The notes under the pieces: generated by a model
The model's database searches: none
The model's input: only the letters and a program-made list of their open reading frames with translations
Told to the model about the DNA's origin: nothing
From: Halochromatium roseum
Lineage (GTDB): Bacteria > Pseudomonadota > Gammaproteobacteria > Chromatiales > Chromatiaceae
Reading direction: 5' to 3'
DNA length: 34,330 nucleotides
NCBI RefSeq assembly: GCF_016653315.1
Contig: NZ_NHSH01000077.1
Span: forward strand, 1 to 34,330
Translations under genes and position numbers: made by a program
Shown: positions 15,040 through 32,026 of the stretch, in pieces
Layout: each line of letters begins with the position of its first letter
Numbering within the stretch: the first letter of the stretch is position 1

Positions 15040-15576
15040 TACGACAAGCCGATGGATCGACTATCTACTCAGCACCCTGATGCTGGCCGGCATCCGCGAG
15101 ATCCTGATCATCACCACCCCGCAAGACAGCGCCGCCTACCAGGCGCTGCTCGGCGATGGCCAGCAGTGGGGCATCCAGCTCGCCGATGCCGTGCAGCCAT
15201 CATCGGACGGACTCGCGCAGGCGTTCCTTTGCGGCCGCGACTTCATCGGCCAAGATGCCTGTGCCCTGGTGTTGTGGCTCGCGGCGAGCTGGAGATCACC
15301 GAGGTCAACGCCCGCTACCTGGCCGAGGGCCAACTGCATATGGAGCGCGTAGGCCGCGGCGACGCCTGGTTTGACACCGGCACCCACGACAGCCTGGTCG
15401 AGACCGCCGCTTACATCCAGACCATCGAGAAGCGTCAAGGCCAGCGCATCGCCGTGCCCGAGGAGATCGCCTTCGAGCACGGCTGGATCGACCGCGACGC
15501 CTTGCGTGAGCAGGGGCAGGCGCTGCATAAGAGGCTATGGCAGTATCTGTTGCGCTTGGCGGAGGAGGGGCTGTGA
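15040..15576 (+). pseudogene. rfbA: rfbA (glucose-1-phosphate thymidylyltransferase) deletion remnant
   Basis: Homology begins in the middle of the conserved [16 protein letters not shown] segment, here reading [20 protein letters not shown], and continues through [17 protein letters not shown] and [13 protein letters not shown] to GQDACALVL. The catalytic N-terminal GGSGTRL loop is missing. After ALVL roughly 100 codons are absent and the frame changes. The next recognisable part is [19 protein letters not shown], then DTGTHDSLVETA and the C-terminus LRLAEEGL ending at 15574-15576. RfbA makes dTDP-glucose for rhamnose synthesis; this copy cannot. Its stop overlaps an rfbB start (TGATG), preserving the original operon junction. 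Confidence 0.85.
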
Positions 15577-15614
15577 TGGCAAAGACGCTCCTTGTCACTG
15601 GTGGTGCCGGCTAG
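15576..15614 (+). pseudogene. rfbB: rfbB (dTDP-glucose 4,6-dehydratase) 5' scrap
   Basis: The first 12 codons read MAKTLLVTGGAG, the NAD-binding Rossmann start of RfbB, and then hit TAG at 15612-15614 where the sequence jumps to unrelated DNA just ahead of rfbD. A second copy of the same start at 24970 continues two codons farther. Confidence 0.8.
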
Positions 15615-15652
15615 GCGTCTCTGTCGAACATTCATTGAGGGAGCACACCGCC

Positions 15653-15850
15653 ATGAAGATCCTCGTGACCGGCAAGAACGGTCAAGTCGGCTTTGAGCTG
15701 AAACGCGCGCTGAGCGTGCTGGGCAACCCTTGAGCCCGAGCGCGGATGCGATCGAGGCCATCTCCACCGCTGAGTATCCAACGCCGGCCCAGCGCCCCGT
15801 CAACTCTCGGCTGGAGACCACCCAGCTGCGCGAGCGCTTTGGTCTGCGTC
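15653..15850 (+). pseudogene. rfbD: rfbD (dTDP-4-dehydrorhamnose reductase) deletion remnant
   Basis: The beginning MKILVTGKNGQVGFELKRAL is the RfbD Rossmann motif and runs to GNP, followed by a stop at 15731-15733. Downstream, in another frame, AISTAEYPTPAQRPVNSRL and RERFGLRP match the conserved RfbD C-terminus (I-T-DYPTPA-RP-NSRL...FGL). About 200 codons between them are missing. The last residues run straight into Rpn copy 2 at CGCGACGATGACAGC, so an Rpn sequence lies directly at the right joint. Confidence 0.8.
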
Positions 15851-16691
15851 CGCGACGATGACAGCCCCTGGAAGGAGGCCCTTGAGCGCTTCTTTCCGGA
15901 GTTCCTCGCGTTGCTGTTCCCTGCCGTGCATGCCGAGATCGACTGGTCCAAAGGCGTGCAATTCCTCGACAAGGAATTCCAACAGCTGGTGCAAGAGGCC
16001 AAGACCAGCCGGCGCCCTGTGGACAATGTGGGCCGACAAGCTGGTCGGCGTCACCTTGCGCGATGGCACGCCGGTCTGGGTGCTGATCCATGTCGAGGTG
16101 CAAGGCGAAGTAGAAACCGCCTTTGCCGAGCGCATGTATACCTAATCACTACAAGATCCGCGACCGCTACCAAGTGCCAGTGGCAAGCCTCGCGGTCTTG
16201 GCCGATACCGATCTGCGCTTTCGCCCACAACAGTTCAGCAGCGCACTTTGGGACTGCCGCGTTGACTTCCGCTTTCCGATGGTCAAACTGCTGGACTATG
16301 CCGCGCCCGAGCGCTGGGCTGAGCTCGAAGCCAGCGACAATGTCTTCGCGCTGGTGGTCATGGCGCAGATCCGCGCCAAGGTCACTGAGGATGCCGAGAC
16401 GCTCAAGGGCTGGAAGTTCCGCCTGATTCGGCTGATGTACGAGCGCGGTTATGAGCAAGCACGGATTTTGGAACTGTTCCGGCTCATCGACTGGATGATC
16501 CGCCTGCCCAAGGCGCTTGAGGCCGACTTTCGCCAAACACTCTATGCCTATGAGGAGCAACAGCGTATGCCGTATGTGACGACAGCGCCGAGGCCTACCG
16601 CGAGCGCATTACCACCGCCGAGCCTGAGCAACTGCTGCAATGGTCCAAACGCATCCTCAGCGCCGAGACGCCGGAGACGATTTTCCACTGA
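15851..16691 (+). pseudogene. Rpn-family nuclease-like gene, copy 2, multiply frameshifted
   Basis: Homology to the full copy begins at codon ~16 (RDDDSPWKEALERFFPEF), fused to the rfbD tail. Three lesions are clear against 30467-31411. A ~15-base insertion near 16018-16032 breaks the EAKT-RR / ADKLVGV region. A one-base insertion near 16144 makes MYT followed by a stop, where the full copy has MYTYHYKIRD. A 76-base deletion near 16584 has end points on ACGAC direct repeats and shifts the C-terminus out of frame. The TGA in the original frame is at 16689-16691. It is not functional. Confidence 0.85.
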
Positions 16692-16748
16692 GGCGCGGGT
16701 GGAGGCGCTGTTAGGCCGTATGACAACCTAAGCCAGGGGGCAACGCCC

Positions 16749-17024
16749 ATGCATATTGAAGCCGAACTCGACGAAGCTCATGCCCAACGCCTGCAAGCGA
16801 TCCAGCGCCAGTTGCAACAGTCGCTACCCGATGTCCTGGCGACGCTGATCGACTTGGGGCAGCGGCACATCGGCACACCGCCCATGGAGGCCGCCGAACC
16901 CGCACCGCTCTATGCGGCACTCGAACAGATCGGTTTTGTCGGCTGTCTCGATGCGGACGCCACCTTGGCGGCCAACTACAAAGACCAGCTCGATTACTCC
17001 GCGAAAGACGGACACCCGCAGTGA
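16749..17024 (+). CDS. Small antitoxin-like protein upstream of a PIN gene
   Basis: The 91-residue product begins MHIEAELDEAHAQRLQAIQRQ, a strand followed by a long helix typical of small ribbon-helix-helix antitoxins, then continues LPDVLATLIDLGQRH. I do not recognise a named family. Its role is inferred from position: its TGA overlaps the GTG start of a PIN-domain gene (GTGA at 17021-17024), the usual VapBC-type arrangement. The frame is intact although its toxin partner is broken. Confidence 0.65.
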   Translation: MHIEAELDEAHAQRLQAIQRQLQQSLPDVLATLIDLGQRHIGTPPMEAAEPAPLYAALEQIGFVGCLDADATLAANYKDQLDYSAKDGHPQ

Positions 17025-17440
17025 TTATTGTCGATACCGGCGCCTGGGTTGGTCTGGCAAACCGGCGCGATCAATACCATGTGCCCTGTCGAACCTTCTT
17101 TAAGCACAATACGGAGCCGCTGATCACCACCTGTGCGGTCTTGGTCGAAACCACGCACTTGCTGTTCAATCGCATCGGGGTCGCGATGACCCTGGCTTGA
17201 TTGGAAACGATTCAGGCGCAGGGTGTGGTGATCGCGGCTCCCAAGCCCGAGGATTTTCCGGAGATGACGCGCTTCATGCGTCAATATGCCGACTTGCCGA
17301 TGGATTTGGCCGCTGCCTCGCTGCTGCTATTGGCCGGGCAACTGGGGCATGGGCGCATTGTTTCCACGGATCAACGGGATTTTCGCACCTGCCGTTGGAA
17401 ACAACATCATCCGTTCATTAACCTGTTGACCTTGCTTTAA
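17021..17440 (+). pseudogene. PIN-domain (VapC-like) toxin with premature TGA
   Basis: Starting from GTG 17021 the frame reads IIVDTGAWVGLANRRDQYH (first catalytic Asp), then TTCAVLVETTHLLFNRIG (the conserved Glu) and is cut by TGA at 17198-17200, codon 60. The same frame continues without further damage through LETIQAQGVV, MTRFMRQYADLPMDLAAASL and GRIVSTDQRDFRTCRW, which carries the later catalytic acids, to TAA at 17438-17440. PIN toxins of this type are tRNA/rRNA endonucleases. A single base change, probably TGG to TGA, accounts for the lesion. Confidence 0.8.
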
Positions 17441-17448
17441 TATCGCCA

Positions 17449-17790
17449 ATGATGGCCGCTGATCCTCTCCACCGGCATGAGCCCGAGGCCGACATCAACA
17501 GCGCCGTGGCCCTGCTGCGCCGCCTGGGTGCGCCCTTCGCGCTGCTGCACTGCAACTGTTTTTTGCTCCACCTATCCCACCCCCTACAAGGACGTGAACC
17601 TGAGCTAACAATCACGCTCCGTCATCGTGCAGACAATGCGCTGTGCGGGCTGTTGCTTGCCCTGCACGACAGGGGCGAGCCATCCGCGTGGCACGCGCAT
17701 AGCCTGTTGTGCGACGCGGATGCCCGACGCGCCTTTGGGGCCTATGCACTCTTTGACGCCGCTATTGAGCACGTCGGCGCTGAACATTGA
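17449..17790 (+). CDS. Hypothetical protein next to CysH-like copy B
   Basis: This is a 113-residue open frame from an ATG 8 bases after the PIN stop to 17790, just before the duplicated cassette begins at ~17801. It starts MMAADPLHRHEPEADINSAV and includes ALLRRLGAPFALLHCNC and LRHRADNALCGLLLALHD. I recognise no family. It could be real: codon-position GC looks plausible, and no better frame covers the region. It could also be the residue of a larger gene displaced by the cassette. No ribosome site stands out. Confidence 0.35.
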   Translation: MMAADPLHRHEPEADINSAVALLRRLGAPFALLHCNCFLLHLSHPLQGREPELTITLRHRADNALCGLLLALHDRGEPSAWHAHSLLCDADARRAFGAYALFDAAIEHVGAEH

Positions 17791-17793
17791 TCG

Positions 17794-18202
17794 CAGCACC
17801 CTGACCCCCGGCGACATCGAGCGCCACGACGCGGGATGGCGCGATCCGGCTTCGCCCCTCTTCTCTTTGGTGGTGCGCAAGATCAAGCACGAGCCACTCA
17901 ACCGTGCCGTCGCGGAGCTAAAGCCCAACCGCTGGCTGCGCGGCATCATGCGCCACGCGACCCCGGAGCGCCAACTCGCCGCGCCGGTGCAATTCAAGAA
18001 CGGGCTCTACCAGGTGCATCCCATCCTCGACTGGAGCAAGGCGCAGGCGTTGGCCTACCTGCACCGCCACGGCCTGCCGATCAACGCGGATCATTGGGAC
18101 CCGACCAAGGGCCGCGATCAGCGCGGGGAATGTCTCATCGGCGATTACTGCGGATTGCACCAGCGCGCGAACCCCTTACCGGTACAGGAACAAGCCTCAT
18201 GA
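17794..18202 (+). pseudogene. CysH-like (PAPS reductase family) C-terminal half, copy B
   Basis: The sequence is nearly identical to copy A: LVVRKIKHEPLNRA, NRWLRGIMRHATPERQ, YQVHPILDWSKAQALAYLHRHGLP and ECLIGDYCGLH with the tail Cys. In this copy the frame is open from a GTG at 17627, but residues before 17794 have no CysH resemblance, so the PP-loop half is missing here too. Whether the half-domain is translated as a separate protein, giving ~130 residues, is open. Conservation of the frame in both copies, with mostly silent or mild changes, argues weakly for function. It ends ATGA into the Nudix-like gene. Confidence 0.65.
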
Positions 18203-18720
18203 GCGACTGGCAACGCCTGCGTGAAATCGTGCGCATCGACTCGGACTGGGTCAGGCTGATCGCCGAGCGCTGGCTGTGCGACAAGGGTCAGGAACTGGAG
18301 TACTGGCGGGTGGAGAAGGTCGATTCGGTCATCGTCCTGCCGCTTTACCGCCAGCAACTGCTCTGCGTGCGCCCCAGCTTCCGCCCCGGCATCCAGCGCG
18401 CCACCCTCGACTTCCCCGGCGGGCGCTTGCCGGCCGGCCAACAACCGCTCGAACTGGCGCCCTTGCTGCTCGAGCGCGAACTGGGTGTGCCGCCAACGGC
18501 CCTCCAGCGCACCGAACCGCTCAACCACGCCCCCTCGGTGATCAACAGCGCCTTCTCCAACCAAGGGCTCTGGGGCATCGTCGCCGAGATCGATCCCAAC
18601 CACCCGCTCCCCGCGACCCACATCGGCCAGCGCGCCCCCGCCACCGTCACCGGCATGCGCGAGCTGCTGCAAGCGCTCGATGACCTGCAATGCCGCGCGG
18701 TGCTGCTGGAATGGGCGCGC
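17801..18720 (+). repeat. 920-bp CysH-like/Nudix-like cassette, copy B
   Basis: This is the partner of the repeat at 10240-11159, at a fixed offset of 7561 bases. Left flank (PIN toxin plus a hypothetical gene) and right flank (a fused C-terminal tail and HEPN-like scrap) differ from copy A. Confidence 0.9.
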
Positions 18721-18894
18721 GCGCAGGGGGGCGTGCCGGCGGATGGAACGCCGACCCAATCCGCGCCTGCCCAAGCCTTGGGGACATGGGTTAGACTGCG
18801 GACGTTAGGCGCGATCGGCGCGCCAGATAGCGAGGTCGGCTGTCTCATCGCGCGCCATCGGCTGCTCCATCCGGGGGAATGCCCATGCGGCTGA
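18199..18894 (+). CDS. Nudix-like protein, copy B, with fused C-terminal tail
   Basis: The ATG at 18199 overlaps the CysH-like stop (ATGA), giving MSDWQRLREIV and 231 residues in all. Residues 1-174 match copy A, including DFPGGRLPAGQQPLELAP and LLLERELGV. The Nudix box is degenerate: Gly residues and one Glu remain, but the Arg-Glu and Glu-Glu pairs that hold metal are not present, so it may be a binding rather than hydrolytic domain. After EWARAQGG at ~18720, where repeat homology ends, about 55 residues of unrelated sequence follow to the stop at 18892-18894. The tail was acquired at the duplication joint. Confidence 0.7.
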   Translation: MSDWQRLREIVRIDSDWVRLIAERWLCDKGQELEYWRVEKVDSVIVLPLYRQQLLCVRPSFRPGIQRATLDFPGGRLPAGQQPLELAPLLLERELGVPPTALQRTEPLNHAPSVINSAFSNQGLWGIVAEIDPNHPLPATHIGQRAPATVTGMRELLQALDDLQCRAVLLEWARAQGGVPADGTPTQSAPAQALGTWVRLRTLGAIGAPDSEVGCLIARHRLLHPGECPCG

Positions 18895-18973
18895 CCAAAA
18901 GGGCACGGAAAATGACAAACAAGACCATGTCAAGTAAACCGCGGACACCACAGCAATTCCCGCTGTTCCCCAT

Positions 18974-19126
18974 CGGCTCGCGCGCCGCCTGGCCAATCTG
19001 AATGCCAGCAAACCCCGGCAGGCGGATCTGAAACAGGCGGTCAGGACGGCCTATTATGCGCTGTTCCATACGCTGGCACAGGAATGTGCTGATCGCTTCA
19101 TTGGTATTGGTGCAGTACGACCATGA
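18974..19126 (+). pseudogene. HEPN-like domain 5' scrap
   Basis: The frame reads RLANLNASKPRQADLKQAV, then RTAYYALFHTLAQECADRFIG, and stops at 19124-19126. The AVRTAYYALFHTL helix is the hallmark of HEPN proteins, many of which are toxins of HEPN/MNT pairs. No start codon is in frame. The domain is cut after the first helices, where the AT-richer FkbM gene begins; its ATG overlaps the stop. Confidence 0.5.
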
Positions 19127-19764
19127 AAAAAAATTTTCTCCATTTCTTGGCTTCAATTGGCAAAAAGCCCAGAAAAATTCTGCATGTCGGCGCGAATACC
19201 GGACAAGAGGTGCGCATGTACCATGAATCGGGGCTGGAAGGGTGGCATGTTGAGGCGATACCTGCGCTTTTTCGTCAGGTTGCTGAAAAATGCGCGAATT
19301 ATCCAACGCAGCATGCCATCAATGCCTGCCTGAGCAACGTTGACGGCGTTGACATTCTGTTCAATGTTGCATCGAATGACGGTCAGTCTTCTTCAATCCT
19401 CGAGCTGGGCCGCCATGCCATTGAGTACCCAGCTATTACCTATGTTGAGAAAATTTCTCTACCAACAAAGACGATCAATCGCTTAATTCGTGATCAGACT
19501 TTGCCAAACGATATCGACTTTTTACTGCTTGATACGCAAGGCGCTGAAGGTCTGATTCTTGATGGTGCAGATTTGTTTCTCGCAAACGATTGCTTAGTTG
19601 GGTGCCAAATTGAGACGGGCGTCGTGCCACTTTACGAGCATGGATCGACTTATTTAGAGATCGCAGCCAAATTAGCGCCGTTCAACTTGCATTTGAAATC
19701 GATTGATTTTAACAGCAAGGGCTGGGCAGATGCCTTGTTTTGCAAACCATTTTGGACTCAATGA
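19123..19764 (+). CDS. FkbM-family methyltransferase
   Basis: The 213-residue product shows KILHVGANTGQEVRMYHES near residue 18, WHVEAIPALFRQV, SLPTKTINRLI, then FLLLDTQGAEGLILDGAD near residue 133 and CQIETGVVPLYEHG. This is the short FkbM form, and its motifs match those of the protein at 12814 (H-x-GA-x-GQE and D-QGAE). Base composition is visibly AT-richer than the surroundings. It begins at the joint with an HEPN-like scrap, so it was probably inserted as a block. The likely acceptor is a glycan hydroxyl. Confidence 0.85.
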   Translation: MKKNFLHFLASIGKKPRKILHVGANTGQEVRMYHESGLEGWHVEAIPALFRQVAEKCANYPTQHAINACLSNVDGVDILFNVASNDGQSSSILELGRHAIEYPAITYVEKISLPTKTINRLIRDQTLPNDIDFLLLDTQGAEGLILDGADLFLANDCLVGCQIETGVVPLYEHGSTYLEIAAKLAPFNLHLKSIDFNSKGWADALFCKPFWTQ

Positions 19765-19902
19765 TTGGCACTCAGTAACCTACAAAGTGTCAACAGCAGT
19801 GCAACGGACTGTTTGAGGGGCATCCAGGTGCTTGGTTTGGGCCCAAGAGAAGGTCGTCGCCTGGGATTGTGAAAGACACCATTTTTCGGAAGCTCAATCG
19901 GT

Positions 19903-20874
19903 ATGAACCCGTTGCGCGTCGATGACTGTTATGCACGGCTCTTCCCCTTGGAGCGCAATCTCGCCGATTGTCGTCGCGACCTCCGCCGCCAAACGGGCCG
20001 TCACGCACCAGGCATCGGCGAAGCGGGCCGAACGGCTCATGCCCTTGAACGCTCGATTGCCGCGGCCTGTCACGGCTGGGACTTTCTGCGTACGGCCCCG
20101 CTCAGCGTCCGCGACCCCGCGTTACCCAAGGCAGCGGCATCAGACTATTTCGGCCGCTTTCGTGAGGTCGTCAGCGATCCGCTCAATGCGTACATTCCAC
20201 GCCATGCGCGGGCAGGGCTGGTCGAGGATGGCTTGGTTTACTTGCACAACGGCCATCGCGTGCCGGTTGCGGGCAAGTATGCGTATTACGATGATTTCAG
20301 CAACCTGCTCGTCATCAATCGTGGCGTGCACGAGCCGCTGGAGGAGTATTGTTTTCAAGAGATCCTCAAGCGGCTACCGTCGCGCCCGTTCATGCTGGAG
20401 TTGGGTGCACTCTGGGCGCACTACTCCATGTGGTGCAAGCAACAGCGGCCCAATGCCGAAGCCTGCATGGTGGAGCCAGAGCCGGACAATCTGGAGTCGG
20501 GTCGCCTCAATTTTGCCCGCCACGGCTACAGCGGGCGCTTCATCCAGGCCAAGGTCGGGCCGGATGACTTCAAGGTGGATGCCTATATGGCGGAATCCGG
20601 CTGGGACAAGCTCGACATCCTGCACGCCGATATCCAAGGCGCCGAGCTGGCGATGCTGGACGATGCCCGCCAGGCGCTGGAGCGTCGGCAGGTCGATTAC
20701 CTGTTTCTCTCAACGCATTCACAACAACTCCATCACCAGTGTGCGGAGCGTCTGACCAAGCTCGGCTATGTTGTCGTTGTCTCCGCCGACTTCGACAATC
20801 AAACAACGTCTTACGACGGGTTCCTGCTGGCGGTGAGTCCACTGCTAGCGCCGCCCGGGTCCGCTGCGCCGTAA
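19903..20874 (+). CDS. FkbM-like methyltransferase
   Basis: This 323-residue protein has a 160-residue N-terminal region and a C-terminal methyltransferase fold. The fold shows FMLELGALWAHYSMWCKQ near residue 163 (motif I with Leu-Trp replacing the usual Gly run), AEACMVEPEPDNLESGRLN, then KLDILHADIQGAELAMLDDA near residue 236 and VDYLFLSTHS. The IQGAE box is the FkbM hallmark. Motif I GALWAHYSMW is atypical and could weaken SAM binding. No Shine-Dalgarno sequence is evident before ATG 19903. Confidence 0.75.
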   Translation: MNPLRVDDCYARLFPLERNLADCRRDLRRQTGRHAPGIGEAGRTAHALERSIAAACHGWDFLRTAPLSVRDPALPKAAASDYFGRFREVVSDPLNAYIPRHARAGLVEDGLVYLHNGHRVPVAGKYAYYDDFSNLLVINRGVHEPLEEYCFQEILKRLPSRPFMLELGALWAHYSMWCKQQRPNAEACMVEPEPDNLESGRLNFARHGYSGRFIQAKVGPDDFKVDAYMAESGWDKLDILHADIQGAELAMLDDARQALERRQVDYLFLSTHSQQLHHQCAERLTKLGYVVVVSADFDNQTTSYDGFLLAVSPLLAPPGSAAP

Positions 20875-21046
20875 GCGGTATCTGAGCGGCGTTCTTGCCA
20901 GACCCGGCATCAGGCAATCACTGTCGCGTGCTGGCAGCAAATGCGCTGGCGTCACGGCACGATCAGCGCCGGTTCGCCAGCCGAGCTGACGTCAGTCGCA
21001 GGCCCCGAGGCGATGCAAATCCGAGCGCAGCGGAGCCTCCCCGCGC

Positions 21047-21487
21047 GAAGCCAGCGACAACGTCTTCGCCCTGGTGGTGATGGCGCAGATCCGCGCCAAG
21101 GTCACTGAGGATGCCGAGACGCTCAAGGGCTGGAAATTCCGCCTGATTCGCCTGATGTACGAGCGCGGTTATGAGCAAGCACGGATTTTGGAACTGTTCC
21201 GGCTCATCGACTGGATGATCCGCCTGCCCAAGGCGCTGGAAGCCGACTTTCGCCAAACACTCTATGCCTATGAGGAGCAACAGCGTATGCCGTATGTGAC
21301 GACGGTTGAACAAGCGGGGATTCAGCAGGGCGAAGCCCTCATCCTGCTGGCTCAGTTACAGGAGAAATTCGGCCACGACAGCGCCGAGGTCTACCGCGAG
21401 CGCATCACCGCCGCCGAGCCTGAGCAACTGCTGCAATGGTCCAAACGCATCCTCAGCGCCGAGACGCCGGAGACGATTTTCCACTGA
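21047..21487 (+). pseudogene. Rpn-family nuclease-like gene, copy 3, 5'-truncated
   Basis: Homology to the full copy starts abruptly at GAAGCCAGCGACAACG (residue ~176, EASDNVFALVVMAQ) and runs intact to the shared C-terminus RILSAETPETIFH and TGA at 21485-21487. The whole N-terminal nuclease domain is missing. The next ~45 bases (CCGCGGCCCGATCCTCTGC...) are also shared with the sequence after the full copy, so copies 3 and 4 come from a common longer segment. A GTG or ATG inside could start a ~130-residue peptide, but no function is implied. Confidence 0.85.
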
Positions 21488-21597
21488 GGCGCGGGACCGC
21501 GGCCCGATCCTCTGCAGCCCGCGCGATCGGCGTGCGCTGCTGTATTGCCAAGGCCGAATAGCATGACCGGGCCGGTCGCCGGTAAGCGTCCAGCGAA

Positions 21598-21749
21598 CTA
21601 CCGGATTGACGGCTGCTGATTGAGGTCGTCCATTTTTAGATTGTGCGGCAGCAGCGCAGCGATGGCCTCGGGCGTCTTCGCAGCGGGCAGCTGTTCGAAG
21701 AGATGGTTGAGGTACGCCCAAGGCTCGAGGCCATTGGCCTTCGCGGTTT
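21598..21749 (-). pseudogene. tnpC: IS66 TnpC C-terminal scrap
   Basis: On the minus strand the frame reads TAKANGLEPWAYLNHLFEQL, then PAAKTPEAIAALLPHNL and stops at 21598-21600. This is the conserved end of IS66-family TnpC (ETAKANG-EPYAYLRH-F--LP). Only ~50 codons survive, cut at ~21750. It marks an old IS66 element between Rpn copy 3 and the recombinase remnants. Confidence 0.8.
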
Positions 21750-21763
21750 ATGCCGCGCGCCGA

Positions 21764-21830: not shown

Positions 21831-21866
21831 CTTGTCTCTCCGCGTTCAACACCGGAGGACAAGATC

Positions 21867-22593: not shown

Positions 22594-23936
22594 CCTATCC
22601 CGTTCGCAACTTCACCGCTCGCTACCCCTGGACTATCTGGCTGCTGTGGGCCTTGGAGGATCGCATCGAAACCCTCGGCGCGGCGGTCACTTTCCTGGAC
22701 TCGGCGGCGGCGCGCACAGCGGTTGTGGCGGACCTGGCGGCACTCACGGCCTGGCCTGGCTATCGCGAAACCAACCGAGCGGATCTGGCCTTCGCGCATG
22801 CGGTGCGCATCCTCTGGGTGGCCGTCACCCACTGGGACTGGCTCGATGCGGGTCTGCAAACGCGCTTGCACGCCGCGCTGGAGCGGGCGGTGGCGGATGC
22901 CCTGCCGTTGTCGGATCGCCTGTACGCGCCCTTCCCGGATCGCGCGGCGCTGCTCGCGACCGGTGTATGTTAAGGCGCCTGCGCCCTGGCACTGGCCGCC
23001 ACGGCGGTGGCACATCCGGCGGCGGCGCGCCTGCACGAGCGGGTGTCGCTGCTCTTTGGCGCCGTACTGGAGCGGCGACAGCAGGGCTTCACCGAAGGCG
23101 TCTCTTACGATGGCTATCTGCTGAGCTTCCTGGCCGATTGGCTGACGACGCAGCCCCCGCAGGCGCGCGAGAAGCTATCCGCGCACCCGGCCTGGGCCGG
23201 GCTGCTGGCGCAACCGCTGGCCTTGGCCGCGCCGGGCGACCTCATGGCCAGCGCCCCCTTGGGCGATGTCGAGCCGGTACGGATGCCCTTTGTCTGGTCC
23301 GCCTTGGCCAAGCTGCACGCCTTGCAGCCAACCGCGACCACGGCCTGGGCCTTGGCGCGCTGTGCCCTGCCGGCCTTGCGCGCGGATGCACTGGTCGCGC
23401 TGACGCGGGCAGCGGAGACGGTGTCGCCGCAACCCCCGAGCGGAGACGCACCAATCCAGCTGAACGCCACACTGGGGCTACGCGGCGGACATGCGCCCGA
23501 GGATCTGGCATGGCGGGCGGTCTGGTTGATCGGCCGCAAGCAGCTGTTGGTCTGCGATCAGGTGCAGGGTGCGACACCTGTGCCAGTCGCCGACCACTGG
23601 CACGGCCATCCCGAGCTGTATTGGTGGATTCAGCAGGGAGCGGCGCTATTGGCCAGTGCCGAGCAGCCCGAGCGGCTGTTACGGATCAGCTCGCCCCAGT
23701 GTCCGCTAGAGCCGGCGGATCTCGACCGACTGCCCGGCTCGCGCGGGCCGTTGACGCTGTCGGTCAGCCTCAGCCCGGCGCCTGGCGAGCCGATCCTCCG
23801 CACACCGGCGTCGGCACCGCTGCAAGTCACGGCAAAGCGCGGGGGCGCGATCATGCGCGCGCAAGCGCGTCCAGACAATGAGCGGATGCGGGCCATTGCG
23901 GTGAGCTGCGAAGAATCGGCTACACTCGAATTTTGA
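22594..23936 (+). pseudogene. Heparinase II/III-like polysaccharide lyase, 5'-truncated with internal TAA
   Basis: The frame starts without a start codon at the joint with the recombinase fragment and reads RYPWTIWLLWALEDRIETLG, then an alpha-helical domain with FAHAVRILW and DALPLSDRLYAPFPDRAALL. A TAA at 22971-22973 interrupts it. The same frame continues with HPAAARLHERVSLLFGAVL, GVSYDGYLLSFLADWL and, in the C-terminal beta-sandwich, WRAVWLIGRKQLLVCDQV and VADHWHGHPELYWWI. This fits the (alpha/alpha) toroid plus beta-sandwich build of heparinase II/III-like enzymes that degrade or trim acidic polysaccharides. The family call is moderate. The gene is inactive as it stands. Confidence 0.6.
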
Positions 23937-24943: not shown

Positions 24944-24945
24944 GT

Positions 24946-25089
24946 TGCGCTTGGCGGAGGAGGGCTGTGATGGCCAAGACGCTCCTTGTCACCGGCGGTG
25001 CTGGCTTCATCGAGACCAATGTGCTCGGCACCTTTAGCCTGCTCGATAGCGCCAAGGCCTACTGGAGCGCGCTCGATGCGAGCCGGTAA
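24946..25089 (+). pseudogene. rfbB: Second rfbA-rfbB scar
   Basis: The first bases (TTGCGCTTGGCGGAGGAGGG) are the last codons of rfbA, identical in sense to 15550-15574, ending in TGATG. The rfbB start at 24970 then reads MAKTLLVTGGAGFI and jumps to ETNVLGTFSLLDSAKAYW, ending at TAA 25087-25089 after LDASR. In intact RfbB the two segments GFIG and AFIETNV lie ~80 residues apart and both carry a TTCATCG-type coding string, so the deletion fused the two repeats in frame. Dehydratase activity is lost. Confidence 0.8.
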
Positions 25090-25233: not shown

Positions 25234-25244
25234 AGCTTCTGGTG

Positions 25245-25541
25245 ATGGAGAAACGCACCCCGCACTGCAAGCTGGATGCCGTGCAAGCCCTGGTCAGGGC
25301 TGGCCGGGTACGCGCCACCCGATCCGCGCGAGAAACGGCGAGTAGCCTGGGGTTTTCCTTCTCAGAGATGCTGGAGGTCTTGATGGCACTGACGCCGCAG
25401 GATTTCTACAAAAGCATGACGACCTATGCCGATCATCGGGTCTGGCAGGATGTCTATCGGCCAAACACGCGGGCTGGCGAACTCTACCTGAAATTGACGG
25501 TGATCGACGATCTTCTGATCGTGTCCTTCAAGGAGTTGTGA
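25245..25541 (+). CDS. mqsR: MqsR toxin (type II TA, mRNA interferase)
   Basis: The product from ATG 25245 is 98 residues, MEKRTPHCKLDAVQALVRAG, the normal MqsR length. The highly conserved block TPQDFYKSMTTYADHRVWQD is present, followed by VYRPNTRAGELYLKLTV and ending LLIVSFKEL. The catalytic-site residues of MqsR (Lys and Tyr in the FYKSMT-Y region) are conserved. MqsR is a RelE-fold endonuclease that cuts mRNA at GCU/GCA-type sites. The toxin precedes the antitoxin, the characteristic reversed order, and its stop is two bases before the mqsA ATG. A start at GTG 25242 would add one Met; ATG is preferred. It looks fully functional. Confidence 0.95.
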   Translation: MEKRTPHCKLDAVQALVRAGRVRATRSARETASSLGFSFSEMLEVLMALTPQDFYKSMTTYADHRVWQDVYRPNTRAGELYLKLTVIDDLLIVSFKEL

Positions 25542-25543
25542 TC

Positions 25544-25945
25544 ATGAAGTGTCCTGTTTGCGGCGCGGCGGAACTGATTCGCGACACGCGCGACATCCCC
25601 TACACCTACAAGGGCGAAACCACGCTTATTCCGTCGGTCACGGCTGATTTTTGCCCGGCGTGCGATGAATCCATCACCGATCGGGCCGAAACCGAGCGCG
25701 TCATGTGTGAGATGCAGGCATTCAACAAGCAGGTGAATGCGGCGATTGTCGACCCTGACTTTCTTGCCAAAGTGCGCAAGAAATTGCATCTTGGGCAACG
25801 CGAGGCGGCGGAGCTCTTCGGTGGAGGTGTCAATGCCTTCTCCCGCTACGAAACCGGTAAGACTAAACCGCCGCTTGCGCTTGTGAAGTTATTCAAGCTG
25901 CTTGACCGTCATCCCGATTTGCTCGACGAGCTAAAGATGGTTTGA
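25544..25945 (+). CDS. mqsA: MqsA antitoxin / transcriptional repressor
   Basis: From ATG 25544 this gives 133 residues. The N-terminal zinc module has MKCPVCGAAEL and FCPACDES (four Cys ligands), with DIPYTYKGE between them as in MqsA. The C-terminal Xre-type helix-turn-helix includes KVRKKLHLGQREAAELFGGG and VNAFSRYETGKTKPP, the DNA-recognition helix. MqsA neutralises MqsR through its N-domain and represses through its C-domain, probably at the palindrome 25221-25233. It is intact, and unlike the PIN modules both partners survive. Confidence 0.95.
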   Translation: MKCPVCGAAELIRDTRDIPYTYKGETTLIPSVTADFCPACDESITDRAETERVMCEMQAFNKQVNAAIVDPDFLAKVRKKLHLGQREAAELFGGGVNAFSRYETGKTKPPLALVKLFKLLDRHPDLLDELKMV

Positions 25946-26166
25946 GCGTTTGAATCAAAGGGGCCAGCCTCCAGGCTCGAATTTATTTCTAATGTCAAGC
26001 CGTAAAGCGCATAAAGATGGACATGAGCGGCATTGACGCAGAGCGTGAGCGGATTTGGCCAGGATGGCCGCGCGAACCAAGTCCGGCTTAGCGCCAAGTC
26101 TCCAATTAAAGGGGCTCGATTTATTTTTGATTGGCGCCGGCATTCGCCCGGATCAGCTCGGTTCGC
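25946..26166. repeat. Region with two further AAAGGGG...CTCGATTTATTT motifs
   Basis: Copies 2 and 3 of the short motif (25952-25988 and 26105-26126) lie in the same orientation and bracket ~115 bases. The bracketed piece reads on the minus strand as a protein-like string, WRLGAKPDLVRAAILAK, that I cannot place. It may be the core of a deleted element that once carried these ends. Confidence 0.4.
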
Positions 26167-27420
26167 TCATGATGATGCCGATAGCGCGTTACCTCGCTGC
26201 AGAGTTGCAGCCCACGCGCTGGCCACCCTGTCTGTGGCTGGTGACCGGCCTAGGCGCTGCCCAAGACAACCCATCAGGGTGCGTTGCCTGCAGGCGCGGT
26301 CAGGCTCCCAAGCGGCTGCTTGCTCGAGCCAGGCGTTGAGCGGCTGCCGTGCCTGCACGGCCGCCTGGGCTCCGGCGGCATAGAAGGCCAGCCGTGTGCG
26401 CTGTGGATGCGTGCGGATCTGTTCTGGCGTCAGGGCGATCAGCGGTTGCCACTGGCCCTGCAGCCAGGCGCCTTGTCGTCGCGCTAAGAGCTGAGCTGGG
26501 GTTTCCGCTGGCGGGGTAGGCTTGGCGGGAGCGGCTGGAGCCGGTGGCGGAGCGGGCGTTGCTGCCGGCGGCACCGCGGCCTGTTGTGATTGCTTCTGTT
26601 GCGCGCGGCTCGCCTCATAGCCCTGCTGGGTACGTTGTGCGCTTTCACTCAGGGGTTGCGCGGCAAGCGCCTCAAGGGTTGGCCAATCGAGTGCCCGCGC
26701 GGCCTGGTAGAGCGCCCACTGCTTGGCGTCCATGTGCTCGCTGGCCAAGGCATCGTCGCCGCGTTGGCGATGCAAGCGCGGGTCGATAAAGGCGCTGATC
26801 TCGCGGGCGGTCGGTCGCCGCAGGCCTTGCACCTCCAACGCGCTGAGCCCCTCGAACAGCGCGGTGGTGGTGGCGACCGGATTGGCCAGCATGTCCTCAT
26901 GGCGCACCGCCAAGCGCGGAAGACCGCGGCTGCTGTTCAGCGCATCGCGCAGATGGCGCTCCCAGAGCGCGATGCCGAACGCCAGCGGGAAGCCCTCGCG
27001 CTGCTGCAGCGATTGCGCGACCTGGATCGGATGGCGAAAGACGTGCAGGATGACCGGCACCTCGAGCAACGGCCGCCAGCAGGGAAAGAGCACGCACAGG
27101 CGCGGGTCTTTCAGCACCCAGGGCCGATGGGCGTCGAGATTGAGAATCAGGTTGCGCGCCTGCCGCTCAAACTCAGCGCGCGCCTCAGCGGGGATGTTGG
27201 CGGGGCAGAACCGGCTGAGCTGCCACCAACTGGCGCTGACCGAGCGGAACAGGGCGTCGTTGAACTGCATGACATCGACGCGTTCCCAGTGGCCTTTGGG
27301 GTTGGATTCGCTTGCGCGCTGGAAGCTGCCCTCGGCGCCGAGGTAAGCGCCCATCATGTTGATCATGCGTGTGACTGCTGAGGTGCCGGAGCGGTGCATG
27401 CCGAGGACGATGAGTTGCAT
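26167..27420 (-). CDS. Sulfotransferase-family protein with proline/alanine-rich linker and C-terminal domain
   Basis: The 417-residue product begins MQLIVLGMHRSGTSAVTRM, the 5'-phosphosulfate binding loop, with KDPRLCVLF at residues 104-112 and the 3'-phosphate element HVFRHPIQVAQSLQQR at ~126-141. Residues ~275-320 form a linker rich in Pro, Ala and Gln. The last ~100 residues (QPLIALTPEQIRTHPQRTRL, then AAWEPDRACRQRTLMGCLG) are a separate helical domain that also occurs as an isolated scar at 32755-33019. Transfer of sulfuryl from PAPS to a surface glycan is the likely role. It is divergent from the small sulfotransferase at 9363. Its neighbour upstream on the same strand is a glycosyltransferase. 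Confidence 0.8.
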   Translation of the reverse strand: MQLIVLGMHRSGTSAVTRMINMMGAYLGAEGSFQRASESNPKGHWERVDVMQFNDALFRSVSASWWQLSRFCPANIPAEARAEFERQARNLILNLDAHRPWVLKDPRLCVLFPCWRPLLEVPVILHVFRHPIQVAQSLQQREGFPLAFGIALWERHLRDALNSSRGLPRLAVRHEDMLANPVATTTALFEGLSALEVQGLRRPTAREISAFIDPRLHRQRGDDALASEHMDAKQWALYQAARALDWPTLEALAAQPLSESAQRTQQGYEASRAQQKQSQQAAVPPAATPAPPPAPAAPAKPTPPAETPAQLLARRQGAWLQGQWQPLIALTPEQIRTHPQRTRLAFYAAGAQAAVQARQPLNAWLEQAAAWEPDRACRQRTLMGCLGQRLGRSPATDRVASAWAATLQRGNALSASS

Positions 27421-27512
27421 GGCGGTGGTTGGGCTTGGGTTGGTTGCTGAGTTGGGGCTGCGTGCGCTTGATCGCGGTGTTTGGCGGGATTATCCGGGGT
27501 CAGCGGGGTTGG

Positions 27513-27680
27513 TCAATGTGCGTTCTGCAGCTGCGCTGTTGCTGGGGGCATCGCTGGCGGCCGCGGGTCGTTGGGGAAGGCCGCATGCAGGTCCGCGAGC
27601 AGCGCGGCGGCTTCGCGCGGATACCTACGGTGCTGCAGCAGCCAGTGGAGCGGGATCAGTGGCGCGAGCAGGTGCGGGCG
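27513..27680 (-). pseudogene. In-frame C-terminal continuation of the minus-strand glycosyltransferase after a TGA
   Basis: The frame of the glycosyltransferase stays open for 55 codons after its TGA (27681-27683) to a second TGA at 27513-27515. The extra stretch reads RPHLLAPLIPLHWLLQHRRY, then PREAAALLADLHAAFPND, which looks like genuine helical protein and directly continues AISRFRR. A one-base change (for example CGA to TGA) would explain it. The tail may have been lost recently. Confidence 0.45.
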
Positions 27681-28775
27681 TCAGCGCCTGAAGCGGCTAA
27701 TTGCATCCATCGCGGGCTCGATCTCAGCTTGCAGGATCTGCTGGCGTGCATCGAGCACAAGACGCGTAACGGTCTCCGGCGTCGCTGCTACGGGCTTGGC
27801 AAGGTGGCTAGGCTCGCCTACTGGCGTGGTCTGTGGCTGGATGGCAGCCGCCGGGGTAGCGAGTGAACCGGTGAGCGTTAGGGCTTGTTGTGCGCTCCCG
27901 TTTCTCTGGATGCTGCGCAAGGCCTGTGGTGCAACGGTCCCGACATGGCACAGGGGACGGTCGGGCCGCTGGTAAGTGCGACCGCGTAAGCGTCGATACT
28001 CCGCCTGCCAGGCAGCGCGGGGGGCGTCTGGGCGATTTGTCGCAATGCCGCCATGCATCTGGTGAAAGGTGCCCTCGCCCAACAGCAGGATGACGTCGCT
28101 GTCCGGCAGGGCACAGGCCCGCGCCCAGGTATCCAGGTTCACCAGTCCGCCTCCCGCAGACGTAAAGCCGGGATCGAAACCACCCAGTTCGGACCACAAC
28201 GCGCTTGGCAAGAACACTGCATTGCACTCCGCTGGCATGGCAAACCAGCCGCCGGCTGACGAGCCCGCGAAGACCGAGATATCAAACAGGTGATAGCCGT
28301 CCGTTTCCCAGTCGACCTCGGCGAGCAGGGCGTCTTCGGCCTGCTGATCGTAGCCCTCGCGGACGCTATCCATCTGCACCTTCGGCCCCAAATGGAATCC
28401 GAGCGTGCCGATCACAGGGCGATGATGCAGCCGTGAGGCGGTCAGGGCCTGCGCAAGGAGGCCGGGCGACGCTAAGCGGGCGCCGTCGATCATGACCCCG
28501 ATCAGATCGCCGCGAGCCAGTGCCAAGCCGGTATTGACGGCGGCAACCGGGGAGGCCGGTGCGGGAGATTGGCGATGCAGACGCAGCGTTGCGCCATGCG
28601 CTGGACACGCCTCCGCGGTCAGCGGGTTTGGGGAGCCGTTATCCACCAGGATGATTTCGTAGTCGTCGGCCTTGATCCCGCGCTGCATGAGCGGCGATAG
28701 TGAGCGAATTGTCCGCGGTATCTCGCGTGCCATGTCGTAGGCGACGACGACGATCGAGAGGCGTGGCTGCGACAT
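27681..28775 (-). CDS. Family 2 glycosyltransferase
   Basis: This 364-residue protein (MSQPRLSIVVVAYDMAREIP) has a GT-A fold start, YEIILVDNGSPNPLT with the nucleotide-binding Asp, and LARGDLIGVMIDGARLASPG where the DxD metal motif would be, here IDGAR. WFAMPAECNAVFLPSALWSE and GGFDPGFTSAGGGLVNLD follow. I chose ATG 28775 because GGAG lies 6 bases before it; an ATG 15 bases upstream has no better site. The DxD motif is degenerate. It probably acts in the same glycan pathway and may be transcribed with the sulfotransferase. Its C-terminus appears shortened by a TGA. Confidence 0.8.
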   Translation of the reverse strand: MSQPRLSIVVVAYDMAREIPRTIRSLSPLMQRGIKADDYEIILVDNGSPNPLTAEACPAHGATLRLHRQSPAPASPVAAVNTGLALARGDLIGVMIDGARLASPGLLAQALTASRLHHRPVIGTLGFHLGPKVQMDSVREGYDQQAEDALLAEVDWETDGYHLFDISVFAGSSAGGWFAMPAECNAVFLPSALWSELGGFDPGFTSAGGGLVNLDTWARACALPDSDVILLLGEGTFHQMHGGIATNRPDAPRAAWQAEYRRLRGRTYQRPDRPLCHVGTVAPQALRSIQRNGSAQQALTLTGSLATPAAAIQPQTTPVGEPSHLAKPVAATPETVTRLVLDARQQILQAEIEPAMDAISRFRR

Positions 28776-28831
28776 TACTTGCTCCGTCATGCCCGGTGGC
28801 TGTTCATTGAACCCAGACAGCGAGAAAGCGC

Positions 28832-30316
28832 ATGTCAGTGTCTCCTTACCTCGATCTGCTGAAGCGGTGCCTGCTCAACGAGATTTATCTCGATGATGAG
28901 CTACGACTGCTCTACCTGCGCCGATGTTTGGCTGGGGAGGAAGCGTTTGACTTTGCTGTTTACCATAACATTCGCACCGCCCGCGCTGAAGAGTACGCAA
29001 AACTCTGCAACGCACGCGCGATCGGGCAGTTTTACGACCGTAATATCCACAACGCTGGCTTCAGCCACACCATGATCGGGCGTCAGCGGCTGGATGGTCT
29101 GCATGACTGTCTTGATGTCATCTTGGCCGAGGGGATTCCCGGCGATCTGATGGAATGTGGGGTATGGCGCGGTGGTGCTTGTGTGTTAATGGCAGGCTTC
29201 CTGAAAGACCATGGCATTACGGATCGCAAGGTGATTCTCGCGGACAGCTTTGACGGGGTACCGCCGTCGAGCATGCAGCCTGATGCGCACCTGCGCCTTG
29301 ATAAGAGCGTCTTTCCGGAGCTGGCTGTCAGCCTGGAGGAGGTGAAAACCAATTTTGAGCTCTACGGGCTTCTCAGCCATCAAGTCCATTTCCTGAAAGG
29401 CTGGTTTAAGGAGACGCTGCAGAAGACGCCTTCAGCGCATTTGGCCCTGCTGCGTCTGGACGGGGATCTCTACGAGTCCACCATGGATGCATTGATCGCG
29501 CTGTATGATCGCGTGAGCCCGGGCGGCGTCGTGATCATTGATGATTGGGGGGTTCTTCCACCCTGCCGGCAGGCGGTTGAGGACTATTTTGCAGGCCGCG
29601 ATGAAGTTGTTCCCGAGGTTCAGGCAATGGATTGGTCTGGGGTTTGGTTCAAGAAACCGGGTAAGCCTGCCAATGTTGAACGTCGCTCCTATCAGACTGC
29701 GTTCCCGGCGCCGTTCCTGAAGGGCTACCAAGCCGGCACCCTGGGATATACCTATCGCGGAGTGCCGTGTCTCAAGAGTCCGATCGACTTGGCGCTCTAT
29801 GCCAAAGCGATCTGGGAACTCAAGCCCGCGACCCTGATCGAGATCGGCAGCAAGGCCGGTGGCAGCGCGCTCTGGTTTGCCGATCTGTTGCAAAGCTATG
29901 GTCTTGAGACGCCGGTGTACTCGATCGATCTGCAGCCGCCACAGGGCCTCGATGACCCGCGCATCCGCTTCCTGACCGGCGATGTCAATGCCTTGGCAGC
30001 GGTGTTCTCCGAACAGGGGCTGATCGAGGCACCACGGCCCTGGCTTGTGACCGAGGACAGCGCGCATACCCATCAAGCCTGCCGTGCCGCCTTGGCGCAG
30101 CTCGCCGAGCTGATGCAGACCGGGGATCTTTTGGTTATGGAAGATGGGGTACTCGATGACTTGGGACTCTCCGAGCGTTACGACGGAGGTCCGAACCGGG
30201 CGCTGCAGGCGTTCTTCAGCGAACATCCCGATGTCTTCCGCGTGGATCGCGCGCTCTGTGATCTGTTCGGCAGGAATGCGACCTATGCGCCGAATGCTTG
30301 GTTGTGGAAGAGCTGA
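28832..30316 (+). CDS. TylF-type O-methyltransferase fused to a CmcI-like domain
   Basis: The 494-residue protein has two SAM-fold modules. Residues ~75-275 are TylF/MycF-like (macrocin-type sugar O-methyltransferase): IPGDLMECGVWRGGACVLMA, ILADSFDGVPP, and the metal-site pair LRLDGDLYESTMDAL and VVIIDDWGVLPPCRQAV. Residues ~295-494 resemble CmcI (cephalosporin hydroxylase/methyltransferase family): ATLIEIGSKAGGSALWFADL, VYSIDLQPP, WLVTEDSAHTHQAC, then DLLVMEDGVLDDLG and NRALQAFFSEHPDVFRVD. Both modules may modify neighbouring sugar hydroxyls. It is divergently oriented from the glycosyltransferase, with only 56 bases between the starts, so the promoters must overlap. A scar of its CmcI end lies at 31838-32026. 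Confidence 0.85.
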   Translation: MSVSPYLDLLKRCLLNEIYLDDELRLLYLRRCLAGEEAFDFAVYHNIRTARAEEYAKLCNARAIGQFYDRNIHNAGFSHTMIGRQRLDGLHDCLDVILAEGIPGDLMECGVWRGGACVLMAGFLKDHGITDRKVILADSFDGVPPSSMQPDAHLRLDKSVFPELAVSLEEVKTNFELYGLLSHQVHFLKGWFKETLQKTPSAHLALLRLDGDLYESTMDALIALYDRVSPGGVVIIDDWGVLPPCRQAVEDYFAGRDEVVPEVQAMDWSGVWFKKPGKPANVERRSYQTAFPAPFLKGYQAGTLGYTYRGVPCLKSPIDLALYAKAIWELKPATLIEIGSKAGGSALWFADLLQSYGLETPVYSIDLQPPQGLDDPRIRFLTGDVNALAAVFSEQGLIEAPRPWLVTEDSAHTHQACRAALAQLAELMQTGDLLVMEDGVLDDLGLSERYDGGPNRALQAFFSEHPDVFRVDRALCDLFGRNATYAPNAWLWKS

Positions 30317-30330
30317 TGGGTGGTCTGGGC

Positions 30331-30367
30331 TAGGCTCAGGTGGATCGTGCTACAGATCCGGAGTTCT
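30331..30367 (+). repeat. 37-bp direct repeat, copy 2
   Basis: This is the partner of 25115-25151, lying between the TylF-CmcI gene and the full Rpn copy. Confidence 0.8.
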
Positions 30368-30446
30368 GGGGCGGATTCACGGAACGGTTGGGTGAACGGA
30401 AAATGGGGATGCACCACGGTTTCGGGTTGGTGGCACCCCAGCTGCC

Positions 30447-30466
30447 GAATCGGCTACACTCCCGGC
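30447..30466 (+). promoter_or_regulatory. Candidate promoter of the Rpn gene (-10 TACACT adjacent to ATG)
   Basis: GAATCGGCTACACTCCCGGC ends directly at the ATG. TACACT (30455-30460) is a plausible -10 and would put the transcription start at or near the ATG, giving a leaderless mRNA. The same GAATC-GCTACACTCCCGGCATG string precedes Rpn copy 1 (13705-13727). No clear -35 was found. Confidence 0.35.
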
Positions 30467-31411
30467 ATGCCAACCGACAAGCACAGCGCCGAGACCGCAT
30501 CGCCCAAGCGCGACGATGACAGCCCCTGGAAAGAGGCCCTCGAGCGCTTCTTTCCGGAGTTCCTTGCCCTCCTGTTCCCGGCCATCCATGCCGAGATCGA
30601 CTGGTCCAAAGGCGTGCAATTCCTTGACAAGGAATTCCAACAGCTGGTGCAAGAGGCCAAGACTACCCGGCGCCATGCCGACAAGCTGGTCGGCGTCACC
30701 TTGCGCGATGGCACCGCGGTCTGGGTGCTGATCCATGTCGAGGTGCAAGGCGAGCCGGAAACCGCCTTTGCCGAGCGCATGTACACCTACCACTACAAGA
30801 TCCGCGACCGCTATCAGGTGCCGGTCGCCAGCCTCGCGGTCTTGGCCGATACGGATCACCGCTTTCGCCCCCGGCAGTTCAGCAGCGCACTCTGGGACTG
30901 CCGCGTTGACTTCCGTTTTCCGATGGTCAAACTGCTGGACTATGCCGAGCCCGAGCGCTGGGCTGAGCTCGAAGCCAGCGACAATGTCTTCGCCCTGGTG
31001 GTGATGGCGCAGATCCGCGCCAAGGTCACCGAGGATGCCGAGACGCTCAAGGGCTGGAAGTTCCGCCTGATTCGCCTGATGTACGAGCGCGGCTATGAGC
31101 AAGCACGGATTTTGGAACTGTTCCGGCTCATCGACTGGATGATCCGCCTGCCCAAGGCGCTTGAGGCCGACTTTCGCCAAACACTCTATGCCTATGAGGA
31201 GCAACAGCGTATGCCGTATGTGACGACGGTTGAACAAGCGGGGATTCAGCAGGGCGAAGCCCTCATCCTGCTGACGTTGCTACAAGAAAAATTCGGCCAC
31301 GACAGCGCCGAGGCCTACCGCGAGCGCATCACCGCCGCCGAGCCTGAGCAACTGCTGCAGTGGTCCAAACGCATCCTCAGCGCCGAGACGCCGGAGACGA
31401 TTTTCCACTGA
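30467..31411 (+). CDS. Rpn-family (PD-(D/E)XK) recombination-promoting nuclease-like protein, full copy
   Basis: This is the only undamaged copy of the window's most repeated gene, with 314 residues from ATG 30467. The N-terminal half carries the nuclease-like core: SPWKEALERFFPEFLALLFP, IDWSKGVQFLDKEFQQLV, then KLVGVTLRDGTAVWVLIHVE with the E-V-Q strand end, and YTYHYKIRDRY. This is the pattern of Rpn/YhgA-like proteins, annotated as recombination-promoting nucleases or putative transposases. The C-terminal half (KGWKFRLIRLMYERGYEQAR, LFRLIDWMIRLP, then a helical tail) is shared by all copies. An earlier in-frame start at 30320 is rejected because conservation among copies begins at this ATG. 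Known Rpn proteins are DNA endonucleases that raise RecA-independent recombination. Confidence 0.85.
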   Translation: MPTDKHSAETASPKRDDDSPWKEALERFFPEFLALLFPAIHAEIDWSKGVQFLDKEFQQLVQEAKTTRRHADKLVGVTLRDGTAVWVLIHVEVQGEPETAFAERMYTYHYKIRDRYQVPVASLAVLADTDHRFRPRQFSSALWDCRVDFRFPMVKLLDYAEPERWAELEASDNVFALVVMAQIRAKVTEDAETLKGWKFRLIRLMYERGYEQARILELFRLIDWMIRLPKALEADFRQTLYAYEEQQRMPYVTTVEQAGIQQGEALILLTLLQEKFGHDSAEAYRERITAAEPEQLLQWSKRILSAETPETIFH

Positions 31412-31571
31412 GGCGCGGCGACCGCGGCCCGATCCTCTGCAGCCCGCGCGATCGGAGCGCGCCGCTGTTCGTCTCTCCTGCCGGGCATGAAGACCGACCA
31501 CCCGATCGATCTGTTTCCGCGCAGCGGCCCTGAGGCCTTTCGGGTGCTCACCGGTGGTCTGCAGCGTGAAG

Positions 31572-31841
31572 GCGGCCGAGGCGCCGCCGTATCGCGAGCC
31601 GGCCTCGCTGCGGCAGTGGATCAAGCCCGGGCGCTGGGAGACCCTGCGCTTTGCGCTGCCCAGCGCGGCGCTCAGCCGACCCCAGCCCTTGCGCCTGGAC
31701 CCGGCCAACCGCGCCTGCCGGCTGCGCATCCGCGCCTTGCGGCTGGGTGCGGCCGAGTCGAACATGACTTGGTGGTCTGCCGAAGCCGGCCAACCCAGCG
31801 CCCAAGCCTTCGCCCGCCTGCGCCTGCAGGGCGATGGATGA
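31572..31841 (+). pseudogene. Fragment of a glycan-related protein
   Basis: In one frame the region reads AEAPPYREPASLRQWIKPGR, then LRLDPANRACRLRIRALRLG and NMTWWSAEAGQPSAQAFA, ending in a stop at 31839-31841. The LRLDP-NR-C-L-I-AL-L pattern resembles the beta-sandwich segment ahead of glycosyltransferases in O-antigen loci. Upstream of ~31560 the frame is not convincing, so the 5' end is probably cut. It runs directly into the CmcI scar. I cannot name the parent gene. Confidence 0.4.
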
Positions 31842-32026
31842 GGCTGCAACCGCCACAGGGCCTCGATGAGCGAGGGCTCTCCGAGCGTTTCGACGGAGGT
31901 CCGAACCGGGCGCTGCAGGCGTTCTTCCGCGAACATCCCGATGTCTTCCGTGTGGATCGCGCGCGCTGTGATCTGTTCGGCAGGAAGGCGACCTATGCGC
32001 CGAATGCGTGGTTGTGGAAGACCTGA
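31838..32026 (+). pseudogene. CmcI-like C-terminal scar, second copy of the TylF-CmcI end
   Basis: The 62-codon frame reads MRLQPPQGLDERGLSERFDG and then NRALQAFFREHPDVFRVDRA to the end NAWLWKT, matching residues ~370-494 of the fusion at 28832 except that 204 bases are missing. In the full gene the two ends of the gap both carry CTCGATGAC (29948-29956 and 30152-30160). The scar keeps one copy (CCTCGATGAG), and the loss is in frame. The scar has a possible ATG but lacks any fold. Confidence 0.85.

Follow-up and report, generated by a model that had tools for sequence, protein, structure and literature searches.

The window analysed here is the whole of contig NZ_NHSH01000077.1 (C77) of Halochromatium roseum, a purple sulfur bacterium of the Chromatiaceae, 34,330 nucleotides long, from an assembly of 5.17 Mb in 88 contigs. 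Glycosyltransferase and FkbM methyltransferase genes occupy its left part. From about 10 kb onward the G+C content goes up and the DNA is a mosaic in which intact genes are mixed with fragments. This part contains a TylF/CmcI two-domain methyltransferase gene, remnants of the rfbA/B/D type, four copies of an Rpn-type gene, three of them broken, and the mqsRA genes, together with an IS607-type transposase and further genes that have toxin-antitoxin-like domains. Many of the same pieces recur in a different scrambled order on another contig of the host genome, C55 (28,972 bases). An Rfam scan of the window gave nothing at the gathering score. Several of the fragments are deletion scars whose full-length counterparts are still present, and our subject is how these scars arose. 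The features on which the argument rests are:

28832–30316, forward strand: full gene for the TylF + CmcI two-domain methyltransferase (Pfam PF05711 and PF04989), reference for the CmcI-type scar
29948–29956, forward strand: left direct repeat CTCGATGAC of this gene, read from the sequence
30152–30160, forward strand: right direct repeat CTCGATGAC of this gene, read from the sequence
31844–32033, forward strand: truncated CmcI-type (rhamnosyl O-methyltransferase-like) remnant
31862–31869, forward strand: joint of the CmcI-type scar, the single CTCGATGA remaining after a 204-bp deletion
25005–25012, forward strand: joint of the rfbB-type scar, CTTCATCG, 255-bp deletion
30464–31411, forward strand: intact Rpn-type open reading frame (315 amino acids), reference copy
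15851–16698, forward strand: Rpn copy B, degenerate
16579–16583, forward strand: joint in Rpn copy B, the single ACGAC remaining after a 76-bp deletion
13806–13808, forward strand: joint in Rpn copy A, 352-bp deletion with the 2-bp overlap GC

A sequence-only reading of this DNA had proposed three scars with end points on short direct repeats and a fourth with little overlap. For the CmcI-type scar the loss of 204 bp between direct repeats stands, and the remnant matches the full copy with 96% identity in one of its two pieces and 93% in the other. The repeat, however, had been taken as nine bases long. The scar reads CTCGATGAG at 31862–31870, and the third copy, on C55 (1209–1116), likewise reads CTCGATGAG on the right side. 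Because the ninth base is G in the scar and in the C55 copy, the repeat is 8 bp long (CTCGATGA); a 9-bp repeat is ruled out, as its ninth base is unsupported. If the full gene is used as the sole reference, the automatic homology score of this joint (31872) is only 1, because the 7 bases next to the repeat differ. In the rfbB-type remnant a deletion between repeat positions was also found as proposed, with 255 bp (85 codons) missing, but here the repeat length is doubtful and varies between 3 and 8 bp with the reference. Of six reference pairings three share 8 bp (CTTCATCG), two share 4 bp and one shares 3 bp; the pairing with the host's own intact copy on C66 gives 4 bp (ATCG). The two Rpn scars were borne out. 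Copy B, the second copy of the earlier reading, lacks 76 bp which in the intact copy lie between ACGAC at 31223–31227 and ACGAC at 31299–31303, and the deletion removes the length-variable C-terminal region. The large deletion with a 2-bp overlap in copy A was measured at 352 bp.

The joints were counted in two ways. A curated window list holds the 11 joints with both parents resolved, with values entered by hand; for the CmcI-type joint the right parent in the rescoring was the C55 copy, Rpn copy A was rescored against the intact copy, and the rfbB joint and those at 15035 and 15623 were added. The list omits the joints at 11154, 21042 and 31466, whose parents are not established. Three of the 11 joints share at least 5 bp where 0.05–0.12 are expected (with per-base match chances of 0.25–0.30 the binomial tail is 2e-5 to 2e-4), and eight share 0–3 bp. 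With the host's own rfbB as reference the count becomes 2/11 (tail 1e-3 to 6e-3). The second count is an automated catalogue of 36 stretches (272 kb) from the host and its relatives, from which we kept the 77 joints spanned by no other sequence. Here 12 joints have at least 5 bp against 1.68 expected when the breakpoints are shifted on the same parents, and 65 fall below 5 bp. By origin the joints with at least 5 bp number 3/11 in the window (0.25 expected), 3/18 on C55 and C12 (0.30 expected), 0/9 on C3, C16 and C67 (0.27 expected) and 6/39 in the relatives' loci (0.87 expected). The window joints of the catalogue lie at 11154, 13797, 15276, 15720, 15850, 16578, 21042, 23509, 25086, 31466 and 31872; two others, 24943 and 31454, are in neither list. 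As those with at least 5 bp are 11154, 16578 and 21042, the window count of the catalogue does not hinge on the three scars first proposed. The rfbB joint is absent because the spanning filter removed it on account of a weak alignment to contig C90 of the relative G002.

Short homology at the joints is above chance, yet it is confined to a minority of them. In the window it concerns two or three out of 11 joints, with repeats of 5–8 bp, which is below the length used by RecA. Thus the claim that breakpoints sit on short direct repeats beyond random expectation holds, while repeats of 5–9 bp are not the rule in this locus, and the three scars first proposed are the best cases of a larger set. 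The remaining members of that set are for the most part joints with hardly any homology:

14944–15850, forward strand: rfbA/rfbB/rfbD-type remnants (named by eye and after the sequence-only reading; the rfbA piece matches NTP_transferase)
about 15035: joint in the rfb remnants, 991 bp, 0-bp homology
15276: joint in the rfb remnants, 250 bp, 0–1 bp homology
about 15623: joint in the rfb remnants, 616 bp, 2-bp homology
15720: joint in the rfb remnants, 649 bp, 3 bp exact or 10 bp with one mismatch
15850: fusion of the rfb-type remnant to Rpn copy B, 0 bp (in the automated catalogue median 0 and maximum 2 across 11 parent pairs)
23509–23510, forward strand: 306 bp deleted in comparison with contig C12, joint with 1-bp homology
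25086–25087, forward strand: rfbB-type remnant fused to the flank of mqsRA, 0-bp homology

Repeated use of short repeats within one locus had been read as the sign of a local process. We therefore compared syntenic ordinary regions of the host and the relatives G002, G007 and G003, namely the region around rpoB (contigs C70 against C7) and the region around an intact rfb-type operon (C66, C21 and C5), using the near-identical joint rule for indels of 20–1500 bp. From 28 listed events, none of them from G003, three were removed as repeats or close neighbours. In the remaining 25 events eight joints have at least 5 bp (0.20 expected); among the control events of at least 40 bp it is 5/19. The same mix is thus seen outside the island. 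At the present sample size neither the window (3/11; Fisher p = 1.0) nor the deletion-type joints of the catalogue (3/22; p = 0.18) differ from the control, and that the locus is unusual in joint homology is not supported. In the first control, of 11 events, homologies of at least 4 bp were found in 6/11 versus 15/77 in the catalogue (p = 0.02), the catalogue being lower; at 5 bp or more p is 0.39. A survey of Escherichia coli, Staphylococcus aureus and Streptococcus pyogenes, in the sections used here (PMC2884548), finds that 10–18% of variable segments lie between repeats of at least 5 bp, reads these as the product of slippage and estimates that illegitimate recombination accounts for 41–56% of the microdiversity loci of E. 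coli. Since the island is no higher than the control and compares with the 10–18% of that survey, the mix of joints is the usual one and a local process does not need to be invoked.

Some scars are common to more than one species. A 191-bp deletion with GCGCC is found at the same position in the host, on C12 (joint 4052, outside the window), and in the genome G009. G002 and G009 both lack the same 201 bp of mqsR, a gene that is full-length in the window. Weaker evidence comes from about 15613, where the rfbB remnant starts: G009 has nearly the same continuation for about 13 bases, so that this start may be a scar shared with G009. Apart from this weakly supported case none of the window joints recurs in the other genomes. 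An rfbB scar common to the host and contig C90 of G002 was not accepted, the spanning alignment having just 67% identity over 73 bases. G009 is of a different genus. In its rpoB region four blocks are 69.5–81.3% identical to the host (93% for G002), and its intact rfb-type region is 71% identical, whereas the debris on its contig C32 is 87–96% identical. This difference suggests that debris has crossed between genera, although contamination of G009 by a nearer relative is possible because all three cases sit on one 5.3-kb contig. As these scars are common to several species, at least some are not the products of one local episode.

How else could the scars be explained? Decay at random breakpoints, with three scars picked out of many, would fit the eight window joints with 0–3 bp, the 65 catalogue joints below 5 bp and the 0/9 of C3, C16 and C67. 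In its strict form it is refuted, since the unselected sets lie above randomised breakpoints (12/77 against 1.68; 2–3/11 against 0.05–0.12), and we regard this explanation as very doubtful. That some joints are errors in the assembly of a repeat-rich draft genome is just as improbable in our view. The assembly consists of 88 contigs, C3 and C16 have identical 127-base end overlaps as is typical for short reads and are thus circular or assembly loops, and, but for the weak rfbB start, the window joints were not seen again elsewhere. However, the C12 joint turns up again in G009, the mqsR gap is common to G002 and G009, and the window joints are internal to the contig. Assemblers usually break a contig instead of mis-joining it. 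Classical non-homologous end joining by Ku and LigD could have made the joints with 0–2 bp, and most joints do have little or no homology. A search aimed at Ku, and not at LigD, found no match in 11 Chromatiaceae genomes, the host and ten others (G000–G010); the same search did find Ku in two out of 16 genomes, neither of which belongs to the family, and among 14 controls in Bacillus subtilis. As no Ku match was found in the host and the ten other family members searched, this form of end joining is extremely unlikely as a source of the joints; end joining in general had been among the processes first considered.

The Rpn-type genes invite a further explanation, that is, the Rpn nucleases of the island cut nearby DNA and rejoining at microhomology then makes the deletions and fusions of the island itself. 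A contribution of Rpn to the microhomology-mediated assembly of genome islands is suggested in the part of PMC5350276 considered here. Intact Rpn-type open reading frames are present in the window and on C55 and several joints fall within Rpn-type genes. At least part of this over-representation comes from the fact that joints become visible only in multicopy genes. Moreover, short homology is no commoner in the island than in the control regions and 65/77 catalogue joints have less than 5 bp. The spectrum of joints therefore lends no support to an Rpn-driven assembly of the island, and we judge it improbable that the island produces its own deletions in this way. It is similarly unlikely that Rpn-rich islands of the Chromatiaceae are recombination workshops, where breaks made by Rpn in resident and incoming DNA are rejoined without Ku at little or no homology, and debris with its scars, intact Rpn genes and toxin-antitoxin genes spread between genera; if this were true, it would back the published suggestion on Rpn and genome-island assembly (PMC5350276, same part).

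We suggest instead that the scars are the result of general illegitimate recombination acting on weakly selected, multicopy DNA. It is likely both that this applies and that the stretch belongs to a mosaic island in which debris of polysaccharide genes lies among toxin-antitoxin genes and intact and broken copies of Rpn-type, sugar-nucleotide and methyltransferase genes. The recombination is most likely independent of RecA. A minority of the deletions, two or three of the 11 resolved window joints, would have occurred between direct repeats of 5–8 bp, for which the simplest routes are annealing of the short repeats or slippage during replication. In the majority, ends may have been joined with 0–3 bp by homology-independent illegitimate recombination. 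The scars would have built up over time, some being inherited by, or passed to, other lineages, and relaxed selection could account for their high density. This resembles the short-homology-dependent and -independent illegitimate recombination of bacteria as presented in sections of PMC2884548, which cite Shimizu 1997 on the subject: deletions at repeats of a few bases below the RecA length occur there too, joints free of homology are mixed in, and the share with at least 5 bp is 10–18%, compared with 12/77 here. The difference is that here the process is read from old scars in Chromatiaceae and not from genetics. Homology-facilitated illegitimate recombination during DNA uptake, also treated in these sections, would yield fused fragments and an exchange of debris between lineages. 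Among the literature, judged by titles and the openings of abstracts, we found no case resembling the present one. The pattern can be understood without a special local mechanism, and the counts give a background frequency by which such claims for these genomes can be judged.

Several points weigh against this interpretation. The control is small (25 events), includes tandem-like indels and its polarity is mostly not established, which is also true for many catalogue joints. The BLAST drop-off settings differed between the two sets of joints, and each catalogue joint was scored with the best among several parents, whereas the control has a single one. Joints are dense in the island, where 34 kb contain no fewer than 11 resolved ones, and relaxed selection is an assumption. 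The homology lengths are approximate because several ancestors are 5–10% diverged, and they depend on the reference: the rfbB joint ranges from 3 to 8 bp and an Rpn joint on C55 from 0 to 5 bp. Finally, with 0/9 on C3, C16 and C67 the mix is not uniform.

The intact open reading frame at 30464–31411 is regarded as a predicted, divergent Rpn-type protein. It matches TIGR01784 below the cut-off (E = 0.0038) and has no match to PF04754; out of 15 aligned homologues seven match PF04754 weakly (best E = 5.6e-4) and nine match DUF4351. Among named genomes, those with the best-matching Rpn-type proteins are Lamprobacter modestohalophilus, Halochromatium and Thiohalocapsa. An AlphaFold2 model of the window protein has a mean predicted local distance difference test score (pLDDT) of 82.9. 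With regard to the PD-(D/E)XK fold expected of the Rpn family, a fold search of the PDB with this model returned nothing at E ≤ 0.001; the weak matches were to many unrelated folds and also to EcoO109I, EndoMS and a Pyrococcus repair endonuclease. A profile search of the PDB with the Rpn alignment gave no match up to E = 1. D73, E93 and Q95 are invariant in the alignment, presumably as a nuclease-like motif. Among copies and species the length of the C-terminal region (window about 31229–31290) varies in 12-bp steps, the differences from copy B being 76, 88, 100, 112, 124, 136 and 148 bp. The invariant residues and the steps agree with Rpn as far as described in the sections of PMC10327210 used here.

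GAGGAG precedes a Met near the C-terminus of the Rpn-type proteins (window 31196–31213; Met codons also at 16567 and 21287). In the window and 80 further loci (L074–L153) 74 of the 75 sites of this internal-start motif have the Met, all 74 with a Shine-Dalgarno-like sequence, a result that is partly built in as the motif itself requires E/Q codons. This resembles the intragenic antitoxin RpnS described in the same part of PMC10327210. Rpn copy C, which lacks its 5′ part, retains (21043–21487) the internal start and the entire C-terminal part and thus could act as a stand-alone RpnS-like antitoxin. Compared with the Rpn genes and arrays in these parts of PMC5350276 and PMC10327210 (YhgA-like, recombination-promoting nuclease), the genes found here are likewise multicopy, show the 12-bp steps, carry a ribosome-binding-site-like sequence before the internal start and have toxin-antitoxin genes nearby; they differ in that three out of four window copies are broken and their sequences fit the family models weakly. 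C3 (9,079 bases) and C16 (3,801 bases) both carry Rpn-related stretches. Two features of the window complete this picture:

21043–21543, forward strand: Rpn copy C, 5′-truncated, joined at 21042 to the flank of an FkbM gene; the 16-bp shared tract at this joint may be a second scar
25242–25945, forward strand: mqsR-mqsA toxin-antitoxin pair, intact

A small gene pair lies at 32129–32704; its second member is weakly similar to YafQ-type toxins (TIGR00053, below the cut-off). Between C55 3859–4944 and window 19123–20874 there is a difference of 579 bp (193 codons, 1-bp homology), which in C55 joins two FkbM-type methyltransferase genes in frame, and both genes are kept in the window. On C55 scrambled fragments at 1193–1928, 8084–8819, 12648–12927 and 16057–16364 repeat each other at 94–99% identity, and from their appearance by eye we take them to be glmS-like.

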